Source of the DNA: Halarcobacter mediterraneus
GTDB lineage: Bacteria > Campylobacterota > Campylobacteria > Campylobacterales > Arcobacteraceae
Direction of reading: 5' to 3'
Assembly: GCF_004116625.1 (NCBI RefSeq)
Contig: NZ_NXIE01000001.1
Location: 620,001 to 684,000 of the forward strand
DNA: 64,000 nt
Below the pieces are notes generated by a model. The model saw only the letters and a list, made by a program, of their open reading frames with translations. It was not told the DNA's origin and ran no database searches. This document shows, in pieces, positions 6,368 to 34,494 of the stretch. Made by a program: the position numbers and the translations under genes. Within the stretch, counting starts at the first letter, position 1. Each line of letters opens with the position of its first letter.

Positions 6368-7009
6368 ATGCCTGACTTATCAAAAATGAGACAAGAATAT
6401 GTTTCAAAAGGCTTACATAAAGAGGACTTAGAAATAAATCCTTTTAAACAGTTTGAAAAATGGTTTAATCAAGCTTTAGAAGCTGAACTTATAGAACCTA
6501 ATGCCTTTACTTTAAGTACAGTTGGACTTGATTTAAAACCAAGTCAAAGAACTGTTTTACTTAAAATGTATGATGAAAAAGGTTTTGTATTTTTTTCAAA
6601 TTATAAAAGTAAAAAATCACATCATATTGATGAAAACCCAAATGTCTCAGCTCACTTTGCTTGGTTAGGTCTTGAAAGACAAGTAAGAATTGAAGGAAAA
6701 ATTTCTAAAATTTCTAAAACTGCTTCTATGAAATATTTTTTATCTAGACCAAAAGGTAGTCAACTTGGGGCTTGGGTTTCTCACCAAAGTCAAGTTGTAA
6801 ACTCAAGAAGTGTTTTAGAATCAAAGTTTGATGAAATGAGAAAAAAGTTTTCAAAAGGAGAGATTCCTTTTCCCTCATTTTGGGGTGGTTATCAAATAGT
6901 TCCTACTTACTTTGAATTTTGGCAAGGTGGATTAAATAGACTGCATGATAGATTTATTTATGAACTAAAAGATGATGAAACTTGGGATATTAATAGATTA
7001 GAACCATAA
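6368..7009 (+). CDS. pdxH: Pyridoxamine 5'-phosphate oxidase PdxH
   Basis: 213-residue FMN enzyme oxidising PNP or PMP to pyridoxal 5'-phosphate. Typical segments are MRQEYVSKGL at the N-terminus, SQRTVLLKMYDEKGFVFFSN (FMN/substrate site, residues 58-77), SRPKGSQLGAWVSHQSQ near 128 and the C-terminal EFWQGGLNRLHDR. Length is normal for the family. It begins 13 bases after the phasin-like gene in the same run as thiDE, so PLP supply is co-expressed with thiamine genes. Confidence 0.95.
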   Translation: MPDLSKMRQEYVSKGLHKEDLEINPFKQFEKWFNQALEAELIEPNAFTLSTVGLDLKPSQRTVLLKMYDEKGFVFFSNYKSKKSHHIDENPNVSAHFAWLGLERQVRIEGKISKISKTASMKYFLSRPKGSQLGAWVSHQSQVVNSRSVLESKFDEMRKKFSKGEIPFPSFWGGYQIVPTYFEFWQGGLNRLHDRFIYELKDDETWDINRLEP

Positions 7010-7019
7010 AGGATTTATT

Positions 7020-29447: not shown

Positions 29448-29571
29448 TATTAATCCTTTTGTAGTTTTTCTTTTATTATATTCTATAAATGTGTAGAGAA
29501 AATAAAACAAAAGCTAAAGTGCCTTTTAGCTATAATAATAACCTATCTTTCAAATAAACAAAGGTTATATT

Positions 29572-30702
29572 ATCAAAAAAACAGCTATTCTTACTTTACT
29601 ACTATTATCTATGACAACTATGATGTCAAATGTTGCAATTATTACAGCACTTCCTAGATTTCAAGACTATTTTAGTAGTATCAATCATATTGAATTTTAT
29701 TCAAGACTTATGCTTACTTTACCTTCAGTTATCATTGCCCTATTCTCTCCTTTTTTAGGTCATATAATATTTAAATATGGCAAAAAAACATCTGCAATAC
29801 TTGCCCTAACTATTTTTGCAATAACAGGAAGTTCTGGATTATTTTTAGATAGTTTAGAAGCATTTTTATTTTCAAGAGCTTTATTTGGAATTGCAATTGC
29901 CACATTAATGATTGTATCAACTTCTTTAGTAGGTGATTATTTTCAAGGAGAAGCTAGACATAGATTTATGGGATATCAAAGTGCTTTTATGTCCATTGGT
30001 GGGGTTATTTTTGTAGTAAGTGGAGGTTTATTGTCAGATATAAACTGGAGATTTACTTTTGGTATTTATTTAATTGGCTTCTTGCTTTTACCTATGATTA
30101 TCTTTTTTCTAGTAGAAAAATCAAAAGAACAAATTGAAGAGGAAGTTCAGTTAGTACCTGCAAACCTTTTAGGTGTTTATTTCTTAGGTTTTTTCTTTAT
30201 GCTTATTTTCTTTATTTTACCAACACAAATGCCTTTTTTAATAATGGATACCTTTAAAGCAAGTGGAAAACTTACAGGTTCTATTATAGGTATTGCTTTT
30301 TTGACTAATGCACTTGGAGCAATATATTTTTCAAAACTAAAAAAGAAATATAGTTTTTCTACTGTTTATTTAATAGCTTTAACTATAGTTGCCACAGGTC
30401 TTACAGCAGTGGGAATTATCCATAATGTTTATTATTTTTATCTAACTGCTATGCTTTTTGGTTTTGGTGGAGGTATTATGATGACAAATGTATCTGCTTG
30501 GATGTTAAGTAAAACAACTTTTGAAAAAAGAGTAAAAGCCTCAGGATATCTAACAAGTTCTTTATTTCTAGGACAGTTTGCTTCTCCTATAGTATTTTAC
30601 CCTATTGTTAGGAACTTGGGAGTACAAAATTTTTTCTTAGCTATTGGAATATTTTTATTTATACTTGTTTTAATAAGTTCTTTATATAAAAAGTTAGTTT
30701 AA
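29572..30702 (+). CDS. MFS transporter (DHA1-type), probable AUC start
   Basis: About 376 residues with 12 hydrophobic segments. The first ATG in frame (29611) lies inside the first membrane helix. Upstream the frame reads ATT ATC AAA AAA ACA GCT ATT CTT ACT with no stop for over ten codons, and AAAGG (29560-29564) stands seven bases before ATC at 29572. A start there gives (M)KKTAILTLLLLSMTTMMSNV, a complete first helix. Family pieces: a GHIIFKYGKKTSA loop near residue 63, and GDYFQGEARHRFMGYQSA near 124. The substrate is unknown; drug or metabolite efflux is likely. Confidence 0.8.
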   Translation: MKKTAILTLLLLSMTTMMSNVAIITALPRFQDYFSSINHIEFYSRLMLTLPSVIIALFSPFLGHIIFKYGKKTSAILALTIFAITGSSGLFLDSLEAFLFSRALFGIAIATLMIVSTSLVGDYFQGEARHRFMGYQSAFMSIGGVIFVVSGGLLSDINWRFTFGIYLIGFLLLPMIIFFLVEKSKEQIEEEVQLVPANLLGVYFLGFFFMLIFFILPTQMPFLIMDTFKASGKLTGSIIGIAFLTNALGAIYFSKLKKKYSFSTVYLIALTIVATGLTAVGIIHNVYYFYLTAMLFGFGGGIMMTNVSAWMLSKTTFEKRVKASGYLTSSLFLGQFASPIVFYPIVRNLGVQNFFLAIGIFLFILVLISSLYKKLV

Positions 30703-30714
30703 ATACTAACTTTT
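30689..30714. terminator. Convergent terminator, MFS and flavin oxidoreductase
   Basis: AAAAGTTAGT and ACTAACTTTT form a perfect ten-base stem around TTAAAT. The hairpin spans the stop codons of both convergent genes. Confidence 0.8.
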
Positions 30715-31744
30715 ATAAGTAAGCTCGAAGATAAGAACTTTCTATTAATTGTGTTTCATTAAATTCTTTAGCAAACTTAAATACTAAATTTGGGTTTCTT
30801 AAAAGCTCTCTTCCATAAGCTACAAAATCACAAGATTTATTTTCTAAAAGAGATTCTCCTTGTTTTGCTGTAGTTATTAAGCCTACTGCAATTACAGGGA
30901 TATTTATATTTTCTTTTATTTTTTTTGCATACTCACATTGATATAAAGGTAAAAGTTCTGGCATTAAATCTGGCTCTTTTTGATTTCCACCTGCTGAAAC
31001 ATGAATAGAATCTACACCAAGTTTTTCCAACTCTTTTGATAAATAAATAGAATCTTCTATATCCCAACCATTTGTTTTCCATTCACTTGCAGAAATACGA
31101 ACAATTAAAGGTAAATCAATCTGTTCTTTTAAAAGCTTAGCAATCTCTAAAGTTAATCTACATCTATTTTCTAAACTTCCACCATAGATATCTTCTCTTT
31201 TGTTTGTTAAAGGGGATAAAAATTCACAAAGTAAATATCCATGGGCAGCATGAAGTTCTAAGATATCATAGCCAGCCTCTTTTGCTCTTTTTGCAGAATC
31301 TAAGAATTGCTGTTTTATTAAATTTATTTCTTCTAAGTTTAAAGCTTCTGGAACTTTGAATTCACTATTTATATCAAAAGGTATTGAAGAAGGAGCGACA
31401 GGATTTGTCTGTTTTACTAAACTTTTTCTTCCAGCATGAGCAAGTTGAATAGCTATTTTTGAACCAAAATCATGAACTTGCTCTACAAGTGATTTATGTC
31501 CACTAAGTTGAGAATCTTCCCAAATTCCTAAATCATTATTAGAAATCCTTCCTCTTGCTTCTATTGCTGTTGCTTCAACAATAATTAAACCTACATTGCC
31601 AAGAGCTTTTGAAGTATAATGAAGAGAGTGAAAAGGTTTAACTTTTGCACTATCATCACTTTTGTACATACACATAGGAGGCATTACAATTTTATTTTTT
31701 AATTGACAATTCCCAATATTACTAGGACTTAAAAGTAAACTCAT
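30713..31744 (-). CDS. NADH:flavin oxidoreductase / Old Yellow Enzyme, YqjM-like
   Basis: 343-residue FMN TIM-barrel ene-reductase. PPMCMYKSDD (residues 21-30) has the redox-tuning cysteine of the YqjM class, HAGRKS lies near 103, the catalytic histidine pair is in ELHAAHGYL near 164, and SPLTNKREDIYGGSLENR follows. It reduces activated C=C bonds in quinones, enals and nitro compounds. It ends a four-gene minus-strand set (EamA, MdaB, nitroreductase, this gene) that looks like an electrophile-detoxification operon divergent from an HxlR regulator. Confidence 0.92.
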   Translation of the reverse strand: MSLLLSPSNIGNCQLKNKIVMPPMCMYKSDDSAKVKPFHSLHYTSKALGNVGLIIVEATAIEARGRISNNDLGIWEDSQLSGHKSLVEQVHDFGSKIAIQLAHAGRKSLVKQTNPVAPSSIPFDINSEFKVPEALNLEEINLIKQQFLDSAKRAKEAGYDILELHAAHGYLLCEFLSPLTNKREDIYGGSLENRCRLTLEIAKLLKEQIDLPLIVRISASEWKTNGWDIEDSIYLSKELEKLGVDSIHVSAGGNQKEPDLMPELLPLYQCEYAKKIKENINIPVIAVGLITTAKQGESLLENKSCDFVAYGRELLRNPNLVFKFAKEFNETQLIESSYLRAYL

Positions 31745-31762
31745 ACTTACTCCTTAAGTGAA

Positions 31763-32392
31763 TTATTTAATATACTCTACAATATCCTCTAGTTTTTCTC
31801 TTTGTTGAGAAGATTGTTCATTAATTCTATATCCAAATGGTAAAACTAAAGATAATTGATATTTTGAAGTATCTAGTTCTAATATTTTTTCAACTTTTTC
31901 TTTTTCAAAACCTTCAATAGGACAAGAATCAACACCTTTGATTGCTGCAGCTGTCATCATATTAGAAGCAGCAAGATATGTCTGTTTTGAAGTCCAAGAA
32001 TAAACATTCTCATTTGTTGAAAGTGTTTCTTGTAAATGTGTAGCATAAAGATTTAAATAAAAATCCAACTTTTCTTGAGGCATTTCTCTTCTTCCAAACT
32101 TTCTTCTAGGAACCCCAGATTCTGGTTTAACATCCTCAATTGCTACAAGAATAATTACAAGATGAGAACAAGTAGTTATTTGAGGTTGATTCCAACAAAC
32201 TTCTTTTAATTTTTCTCTTAATTCATTATTTGTTATAACTAAAAACTTCCAAGGTTCCATACCAAAAGAAGAAGGAGATTTTCTTCCTGCTTCTAAAATA
32301 TATTCTAAATCAGAATCTGAAATTTTTTTTGTTTCATCAAAAATTTTACAAGCATGTCTAAAATCCATAGCTTCCATAAATGTTTTTTCCAT
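31763..32392 (-). CDS. Nitroreductase family FMN oxidoreductase (NfsB-like)
   Basis: 209 residues. Typical pieces: FRHACKIFDETKKISDSDLE with an ILEAGRKSPSSFGMEPWKF start (FMN phosphate and dimer contacts), ETLSTNENVYSWTSKQTYLA in the middle, and a C-terminal KYQLSLVLPFGYRI. It reduces nitroaromatics and quinones with NAD(P)H. It is 18 bases before the ene-reductase gene. A short palindrome in front (32449-32462) resembles part of the HxlR operator, so it may have its own control. Confidence 0.92.
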   Translation of the reverse strand: MEKTFMEAMDFRHACKIFDETKKISDSDLEYILEAGRKSPSSFGMEPWKFLVITNNELREKLKEVCWNQPQITTCSHLVIILVAIEDVKPESGVPRRKFGRREMPQEKLDFYLNLYATHLQETLSTNENVYSWTSKQTYLAASNMMTAAAIKGVDSCPIEGFEKEKVEKILELDTSKYQLSLVLPFGYRINEQSSQQREKLEDIVEYIK

Positions 32393-32448
32393 AAATAAAT
32401 CCTCTATATTTTAATTTTTTATTGTAACAATTTTTTTTAATCACTTCA

Positions 32449-32462
32449 TTTACATAAGTAAA
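32449..32462. promoter_or_regulatory. Possible second HxlR operator
   Basis: TTTAC-ATAA-GTAAA immediately follows the mdaB stop and lies 57 bases before the nitroreductase start. Read on the minus strand it shares ATGTAAAT with the large inverted repeat before the HxlR gene. Confidence 0.4.
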
Positions 32463-32468
32463 GATTTA

Positions 32469-33062
32469 TTACTTAAAATTCTCTTTTAAAGTATTTTCAA
32501 ACTTTTTAAATTCTTTTTCTAAGTCTAAATCTCCTTTAAAAATATCATGTACTGAATAAGTTTTTAAAGGTTCTAAACCACAAAATTGGAATGTCTTATG
32601 AACTGCGACATGGGCTTCATCTAAAGATAAACCATCAAAGAAACCATTTTTATTACCAAATTCTGATTCTGGGCAATTATAAGTTAAAGACAACATATAT
32701 TTACCTTTTAATAGTCCTCCACTTCCATAAGTCTTTGAAGAGTCTTCTCTACTTCTTCCATCACTTGCATAATGTTTGCCTTGAGTAAGAACTTCATCAA
32801 AATATTTTTTTGTAATCCAAGGAACACCCATCCAATATACAGGGTATTGAAGTAAAATATAATCTGCCCAAACTAATTTTTCAATTTCTTCTTCTTTATT
32901 ATAACCTTCCTCAATATGTGTATATTTTACTTCAAAACCATTTTCCAAAAAGAACTCTTTTGCTTTTTTAATATAATTATTTGTAAGTTCACCTTTTGCA
33001 ACTACATCATAATATTGATGACCATTTAAAATTAAAACTTTTTTATTTTCACTTTGATTCAT
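32469..33062 (-). CDS. mdaB: NAD(P)H:quinone oxidoreductase, MdaB-like
   Basis: 197-residue flavodoxin-fold enzyme of the MdaB/NQO family. VLILNGHQYYDVVAKGELTN lies at the start (FAD pyrophosphate loop), LLQYPVYWMGVPWITKKYFD near residue 74, and YMLSLTYNCPESEFG near 122. MdaB carries out two-electron quinone reduction and protects against oxidative stress in epsilon-proteobacteria. It is 18 bases after the EamA gene and in line with the nitroreductase and ene-reductase. Confidence 0.9.
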   Translation of the reverse strand: MNQSENKKVLILNGHQYYDVVAKGELTNNYIKKAKEFFLENGFEVKYTHIEEGYNKEEEIEKLVWADYILLQYPVYWMGVPWITKKYFDEVLTQGKHYASDGRSREDSSKTYGSGGLLKGKYMLSLTYNCPESEFGNKNGFFDGLSLDEAHVAVHKTFQFCGLEPLKTYSVHDIFKGDLDLEKEFKKFENTLKENFK

Positions 33063-33080
33063 GATTTTTACTCCTAAAGA

Positions 33081-33989
33081 TTAGATTATTTGTGCTTTTT
33101 TTCTTAAACCTCTTCTTGAATTAAAAAGAAGAACTGCAACAAAAGATAAAGCACAACCAACTATTGTTGATAACATTATCTCTTCCCCATAAATTATCCA
33201 ACTAGAAATAATTGCTCCCACAGGAACTATAAACATAAATACTCCCGTTTGATGTGCTCCTATTTTACTAGCTGAGATAAAAAAAAGTGCTGTACTAAAA
33301 GTTCCAGCAAAAATTCCAATAAATAATATATTCCACCAGAAGATTGAATCAAAATTGTTTAAAACAAAAGGATGAAAAGGTAAAGCAAAAAACATATTTA
33401 TAAGACCTGTCACACCAAATACAACTAACGTATAAAACATAGGATCAACTCCTCTTTGTGCAGCTTTTTGAGCTATTATTGTAACAATAGACCAAACAAC
33501 AGCACACTCTAAAAAGTAAGAGCTATCTACATTTAAAAAGCCTAAACCTTCAAAAGGTATTTTCAACAAAATAATTGCTCCAAAAATCCCTACACTTAAA
33601 GCAAGAATTTGTTTTGTTGTTATTTGTGTTTTAAAAATTGTTAGAGACATTAAATAAGTAAGTATTGGAGAAATAGCTGTTACAAGTGTCCCTCCATATC
33701 CTGCTTGTCCATGTGAAAGTCCTGCAAAAAACAAATAATTGAAAAAAGCAATTAAAGCTCCTGCAAGAACCATATAAAAAACTCCTAACTTATCAGCTTT
33801 AAAAGAAGTTTTCATATAAAAGATTATAGGTATTACTGTAATAAAAGATATAGCATATCGCCAAAACGCTGCCACTTCGGCATTTGAATGTTCTGCTGCT
33901 GCTTTACCTGAAGTCCAAGCCATACCCCAAATAAGCATTGCAACGATCATTCCTATAAAATATTTTGTTTTGTTTTCACTTTGGGTCAT
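33081..33989 (-). CDS. EamA family (DMT) transporter
   Basis: 302 residues, ten hydrophobic segments in two EamA repeats (first repeat with WGMAWTSGKAAAEHSNAEVA near residue 21 and FWRYAISF; second begins near 160). It is the first gene of the detoxification operon and is divergent from an HxlR regulator across an operator-like repeat. It is probably an exporter for the compound that induces the operon. It is only distantly similar to the two paralogous EamA genes at 51.6 and 56 kb. Confidence 0.88.
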   Translation of the reverse strand: MTQSENKTKYFIGMIVAMLIWGMAWTSGKAAAEHSNAEVAAFWRYAISFITVIPIIFYMKTSFKADKLGVFYMVLAGALIAFFNYLFFAGLSHGQAGYGGTLVTAISPILTYLMSLTIFKTQITTKQILALSVGIFGAIILLKIPFEGLGFLNVDSSYFLECAVVWSIVTIIAQKAAQRGVDPMFYTLVVFGVTGLINMFFALPFHPFVLNNFDSIFWWNILFIGIFAGTFSTALFFISASKIGAHQTGVFMFIVPVGAIISSWIIYGEEIMLSTIVGCALSFVAVLLFNSRRGLRKKAQII

Positions 33990-34041
33990 ATAATTCCTTA
34001 ATTTCAGCGAAATGCTTTGGAATTATATTTTAGATAAACTT

Positions 34042-34080
34042 AATTTACCCTTACTTTACTTTAGGTAAGTAATGTAAATT
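34042..34080. promoter_or_regulatory. Nested inverted repeat, probable HxlR operator
   Basis: Outer arms AATTTAC (34042-34048) and GTAAATT (34074-34080), inner arms TTACTT (34051-34056) and AAGTAA (34067-34072). It lies between the divergent EamA operon and the HxlR gene, 40 bases before the HxlR start. Confidence 0.65.
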
Positions 34081-34119
34081 TATTATCTTTATGTTATAAT
34101 CAAAAAATGGAGTATAAGA

Positions 34120-34494
34120 ATGTATTATATAAACAACAAAGAATATAAGTGTTCCGTCGCAGTTACTTTAGATATTTTCAATGATAGATGGAAATTAGCA
34201 ATAATTTGGCATTTATTAGATGGAGAAAAAAGATTTAAAGAATTACATGAAACAATTAGTGAAATTACTCAAAAAACTTTAACTGTAAAATTAAAAGAAT
34301 TAGAAGAAAAAAATATCATAAACAGAGAAGTTTTTCCTGAAATCCCACCTAAAGTTGTTTACTCACTTACAGATGTTGGAGAAAAACTAAAACCTGTACT
34401 AGAAGAAATGTATAATTGGGGTATTTTATACAGTTCAGCACATGGAGAAATTACTGGTGAAAACTCTTGTTATGTAAATTTAGGGAAGAAGTAA
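34120..34494 (+). CDS. HxlR family transcriptional regulator
   Basis: 124-residue winged helix of the HxlR/YodB family. CSVAVTLDIFNDRWKLAIIW opens the domain, then GEKRFKELHETISEITQKTL (recognition helix region) and KVVYSLTDVGEKLKPVLEEM. The cysteine at residue 11 is at the place where YodB, HypR and QorR sense quinones, aldehydes or hypochlorite. It is divergent from the quinone, nitro and ene-reductase operon, which fits a thiol-based electrophile sensor. It is four bases ahead of an AEC transporter. Confidence 0.9.
   Translation: MYYINNKEYKCSVAVTLDIFNDRWKLAIIWHLLDGEKRFKELHETISEITQKTLTVKLKELEEKNIINREVFPEIPPKVVYSLTDVGEKLKPVLEEMYNWGILYSSAHGEITGENSCYVNLGKK

Follow-up and report, generated by a model that had tools for sequence, protein, structure and literature searches.

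Comparison with orthologues suggests that an MFS transporter gene of Halarcobacter mediterraneus does not begin at AUG and appears to use AUC, a very weak start codon. The gene lies in the stretch of 64,000 nucleotides that we analysed as a whole (the window; Table 1). We hold with high confidence to an explanation in which translation would start at AUC 29572, AAAGG would anchor the ribosome, ordinary initiator tRNA would be used, output would be weak and sensitive to IF3, and the gene would belong to a conserved set with AUH starts (AUU, AUC or AUA). Comparative analysis allowed us to establish the start position, the Shine-Dalgarno spacing, the conservation of the site and the normal sequence of the initiator anticodon arm. 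To these the explanation would add fMet as the first residue, weak initiation that is sensitive to IF3, and selection for a low level of expression.

Table 1. Coordinates of the MFS start region and of other genes with putative AUH starts (window positions, or genome and contig positions where prefixed G000:C1)
Feature	Position	Strand	Basis or remark
In-frame stop TAA	29539..29541	+	Bounds the open upstream stretch of the MFS frame
Shine-Dalgarno element AAAGG	29560..29564	+	7 nt 5' of the start codon
Putative start codon ATC (AUC)	29572..29574	+	Aligned codon ATH in 10/10; onset of coding signature
MFS transporter gene, 376 aa	29572..30702 (including stop)	+	Pfam MFS_1; 12 TM-like helices modelled
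First in-frame ATG, internal Met 14 in helix 1	29611..29613	+	Standard gene-finder start
AAAGG of second AUH-start gene	7008..7012	+	Sequence
ABC1/UbiB-like kinase gene, putative ATA (AUA) start, 512 aa	7020..8558	+	Pfam ABC1, 209 bits
DEAD-box helicase gene (L104 / L157)	G000:C1:548923-550071	-	Putative ATA start after AAAAGG
ftsK (L194 / L215)	G000:C1:413406-415652	+	Putative ATT start
TatD-type DNase gene (L186 / L245)	G000:C1:261792-262571	+	Putative ATA start two codons before conserved IDSHCHL

Start site of the MFS gene

In the MFS frame, 23 open codons (29542-29610) lie between the TAA and ATG 29611, and ATG, GTG, TTG and CTG are all absent from them. An earlier note on this DNA, made from the sequence alone, had placed the start at AUC (or AUU), with AAAGG seven bases before ATC 29572 and an open upstream frame encoding part of the N-terminal helix. 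The spacing proved exact: ATC 29572 follows AAAGG at 7 nt and ATT 29569 at 4 nt. As a measure of chance, 797 kb of the H. mediterraneus genome were sampled, and 1.5% of the ATH triplets there have AGG 7 or 8 nt 5'. The MFS gene shares with bacterial AUH-initiated genes of the infC, pcnB and ccpN kind the lack of a usable ATG, GTG or TTG at its conserved N-terminus, a well-spaced Shine-Dalgarno element, conservation of the start codon across species and an ordinary CAU initiator tRNA.

We found the gene in 13 of the 16 genus genomes and in 35 of 104 family genomes (E at most 1e-60). At the position aligned to 29572, 10 of the 13 genus orthologues carry ATC (H. mediterraneus itself, G000 in our comparisons, with G002 and G010), ATT (G012, G004 and G015) or ATA (G003, G009, G001 and G007). 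AGG precedes this codon by 7 nt in eight of the ten and by 8 nt in two, a tally over related sequences and hence not over independent trials. Seven of the ten lack any in-frame ATG, GTG or TTG 5' of the ATH codon, and three have a canonical codon further 5' (ATG at -20 in G009, ATG at -52 in G004 and GTG at -41 in G002; codons are numbered from 29611, so that -13 is 29572 and -14 is 29569). The other three genus orthologues (G005, G008 and G011) carry ATG three codons 5' of the aligned codon, and ATG at exactly that codon was found in none of the orthologues compared. The earlier note had named comparison with orthologues as the check, and consistent starts at 29611 as the outcome that would speak against AUC; this outcome was absent among the 13 genus orthologues, none of which has the Met at 29611 as its sole possible start.

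Outside the genus, the 25 copies that we read by eye have ATG (24 copies) or TTG (one copy) 5' of the aligned Ile codon, mostly as ATG three codons upstream. Since Ile is merely residue 4 in such proteins, its conservation alone is no proof of an AUH start. Codon -14 is ACT, CAA, AAA or AAT in seven of the ten AUH orthologues, and because only codon -13 is ATH in all ten, AUC 29572 is favoured over AUU 29569 as the start.

We also considered that the gene might start at ATG 29611, the first canonical codon in the frame, with the conserved upstream codons forming an untranslated leader. Across the ten AUH orthologues, codons -13 to -1 showed 0.16, 0.06 and 0.51 differences per codon pair at positions 1, 2 and 3, respectively, and codons -26 to -14 showed 0.53, 0.56 and 0.60. 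The share of third-position differences in codons -12 to -1 gave a permutation p-value of about 1e-4. Judged from these differences, the protein-coding signature of the gene starts at the codon aligned to 29572. That codons -13 to -1 evolve like protein argues against a leader and agrees with the earlier claim that the open upstream frame encodes the missing part of helix 1. In addition, a Shine-Dalgarno-like run is absent 5' of 29611, and the orthologues with an upstream ATG take in the stretch from -13 to -1. In-frame stops at -17 (G010 and G007) or -18 (G003 and G001) leave only a few codons directly ahead of the conserved stretch in which translation of those four orthologues could start, and none of these codons is canonical. 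The other frames offer no start reading into the site in seven of the ten AUH orthologues, and none was found in either other frame of H. mediterraneus; on this check we set aside out-of-frame initiation with a frameshift.

The predicted protein matched MFS_1 (PF07690), scoring 138 bits where the Pfam cut-off is 33.4 (query read from 29569). AlphaFold2 modelled it with a mean pLDDT of 85.9, a pTM of 0.86 and 12 TM-like helices, from an input alignment (A1) of 12 of the 13 chosen sequences; L052, with a stop in its stretch, was omitted. In this model helix 1 comprises residues 3-33 counted from 29572, and Met 29611 is residue 14. The earlier statement that the first ATG falls inside helix 1 thus agrees with the model, and its estimate that half the helix would be missing was too high, since a start at 29611 would be predicted to remove about a third. 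With helix 1 cut in this way and the upstream codons evolving as they do, we regard a start at 29611 as very unlikely. An assembly error turning AUG into AUC has a negligible probability: we found no points in its favour, and it is refuted by three different AUH codons at the site across ten separate genomes.

By sequence profile, the closest PDB relatives are the drug exporters EfpA, antiseptic resistance protein and NorA. They resemble the protein of 29572..30702 in profile similarity and in carrying Pfam MFS_1, and they are distant from it; we rejected assigning a substrate from these matches as too distant. Window positions 29572-34494 hold a conserved neighbourhood in which the MFS gene is accompanied by genes for an FMN oxidoreductase (Pfam Oxidored_FMN), a nitroreductase, a flavodoxin-like reductase (Flavodoxin_2), an EamA transporter and an HxlR regulator. 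Of 12 other loci in the genus, 10 also have the nitroreductase, flavodoxin-like and HxlR genes next to the MFS gene; one of the two exceptions is a short contig. The transporter may serve in efflux tied to quinone or electrophile stress.

Putative AUH starts in other genes of the family

Our survey set 797 kb of the H. mediterraneus genome, about 28% of it, against 800 kb of G012 and kept the 503 orthologue pairs in which identity reached 50% and no fewer than 80 codons were aligned. Homology reached at least 7 codons 5' of the first canonical start in 71 pairs, and six of these were judged from their codons to have AUH starts, with AGG 7-8 nt 5' in both genomes. By Pfam family, the six are the MFS gene, an ABC1/UbiB-like kinase, a DEAD-box helicase, ftsK, tatD and an Aat-like gene (Leu_Phe_trans). 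Six is a lower bound, as the 41 of the 503 pairs without a shared canonical start within 30 codons were examined in part. Extended to the whole genome, on the condition that the 28% sample represents it, this gives a share of 1.2% of genes with AUH starts (95% interval 0.4 to 2.6%). The first canonical codon in H. mediterraneus lies 81 codons into the conserved protein for the UbiB-like gene (ATG 7266), 109 for FtsK, 56 for the DEAD-box helicase and 44 for TatD.

Relatives of these genes were examined in 46 genomes, using at most the best 30 loci per gene and accepting AGG at 6-9 nt. All 18 copies of the DEAD-box helicase, in four genera, have a Shine-Dalgarno element and AUH without a canonical alternative. 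For TatD, the best 30 loci comprised 25 of this kind (16 in the genus, covering 16/16 genomes, and nine in other family members), one with Shine-Dalgarno and AUH plus GTG, and four with canonical starts. Among the 29 FtsK genes counted of the best 30 loci, 24 had Shine-Dalgarno and AUH without an alternative (15 in the genus, eight in other family members and one in another family), two had these plus an upstream TTG, and three were canonical; the gene of G008 was left out with its N-terminal end missing. On these best 30 loci, the AUH start of ftsK appears to have been kept through most of the family.

The earlier note had also mentioned a second near-cognate start in the window without giving coordinates, and this is probably the ABC1/UbiB-like gene. 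Twenty-one of its 22 loci were counted: 16 with Shine-Dalgarno and AUH without an alternative, two with these plus TTG, one with neither and two canonical. The gene of G062, with its N-terminal end missing, was left out. Within the genus, 14 of 14 copies have AUH with an upstream AGG, two of them also with TTG further 5'. Of the 15 genus genomes counted for the Aat-like gene (L278-L301), 13 have AUH and two, G009 and G011 (L287 and L289), have ATG at the very same codon, a natural AUH/AUG pair suited to tests. Copies of this gene outside the genus mostly have canonical starts, and the gene of G008, again with its N-terminal end missing, was left out. Taken together, genes with an AAAGG-N7-AUH layout appear to be kept in the Arcobacter-type family, and several seem to extend across it.

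Proposed initiation at AUH codons and the persistence of these codons

At the MFS site, the 30S subunit would be anchored by pairing of AAAGG with the 3' end of 16S rRNA. Ordinary initiator tRNA (anticodon CAU) would pair with the A and U of AUC and mismatch at the third base, and the protein would begin with fMet. IF3 is reported to disfavour third-base mismatches at the start codon (PMC10158994), and a Staphylococcus aureus study (PMC13009471) describes conserved AUU and AUA starts with strong Shine-Dalgarno elements whose output in poor medium is about a tenth of that from AUG. By analogy with these two reports, IF3 should reject many complexes at AUC, and the MFS mRNA should be translated weakly, at a level that would change with IF3 or with the conditions of initiation.

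A possible hairpin (29526-29573, plus strand; z -1.9) covers AAAGG and AUC in H. mediterraneus only, where the probability that the start codon is unpaired is 0.35, compared with 0.57-0.98 in the nine other AUH orthologues. As the hairpin is not common to those nine, we rejected it as the mechanism. A search against Rfam gave one sub-threshold match only, within the neighbouring gene.

The start could be correct and AUH could nevertheless persist by drift, with strong AT bias having turned ATG into ATA or ATT in weakly expressed genes and selection for low or regulated output playing no part. In keeping with such drift, A or T makes up 93% of four-fold third positions, and G 3.0%. Parsimony on five genes gave 21 inferred third-base changes with zero ATG in the counted tips, an outcome with a probability of about 0.53. 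Avoidance of ATG at AUH sites is thus not significant when third-base changes are counted on the tree. With G at 3.0% of four-fold sites, the absence of ATG among AUH codons is no proof of selection for weak initiation. Against drift, ftsK, the DEAD-box helicase and others retain AUH across the family with AAAGG kept, and ATC accounts for 17 of the 97 AUH starts, compared with a share of 7.9% among Ile codons, a count over related tips. We consider drift under AT bias a serious rival as to why AUH persists, somewhat short of an even chance, and no rival as to the position of the start.

It is improbable that start-codon discrimination has become relaxed in the ribosomes of this family, so that AUH serves nearly as well as AUG. 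Several conserved genes with AUH starts would fit such ribosomes, but all 16 genus genomes have an initiator tRNA with the standard anticodon arm CGGGCTCATAACCCG, and AUG is still dominant, with 389 ATG, 51 TTG and 22 GTG starts common to both genomes among the 503 pairs. A pattern search of the H. mediterraneus genome found no second initiator-type arm reading AUH; the one extra match was not a tRNA (ARAGORN). We also considered infC as an AUH gene in the genus and rejected it, because it starts with TTG behind a strong purine-rich Shine-Dalgarno element in the 14 genus genomes, of 16, in which a motif search located it (L078-L093).

Relation to known systems and meaning for the family

AUH starts behind a Shine-Dalgarno element are of a known kind. 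In Escherichia coli, infC and pcnB start with AUU behind such elements and initiate weakly, in an IF3-sensitive manner in infC. E. coli is known to have these two genes with AUU starts, and a handful of AUH-start genes is known from other bacteria. The classic autoregulated gene, infC, falls outside the AUH class in this genus, with TTG in the 14 genomes where it was located. Deinococcus deserti, of a different phylum, reportedly makes unusual use of non-canonical initiation codons in one lineage, going by the title of a 2010 report; its evidence is proteomic, whereas ours for the Arcobacter-type family is drawn from sequence.

A close parallel in layout is S. aureus, where cvfC1 (AUU), ccpN (AUA) and infC (AUA, unlike genus infC) have conserved AUH codons behind strong, extended and well-spaced Shine-Dalgarno elements (PMC13009471). 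That study reports four sites in another phylum and in other genes, supported by ribosome profiling and reporters, whereas the Arcobacter-type set numbers six genes in a 28% sample and was identified by sequence comparison. In the open-access literature searched we found no work with AUH starts in Arcobacter or its relatives in its title, and on that literature the frequency found in the Arcobacter-type family seems undescribed.

Annotation restricted to ATG, GTG and TTG would make the MFS gene 13 codons short, and with AUH starts in six genes, standard gene finders would misplace the beginnings of all of them. We tentatively suggest, as a possibility rather less likely than not to hold, a lineage-wide translational control in which about 1% of genes would keep AUH behind AAAGG-N7, the MFS exporter gene, ftsK, tatD and an RNA helicase gene among them. 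Their synthesis would then be low and would move with the availability of IF3 or initiator tRNA, infC itself having left the AUH class for UUG. The AUH set would offer natural material on why weak start codons persist and on whether the level of IF3 coordinates them.
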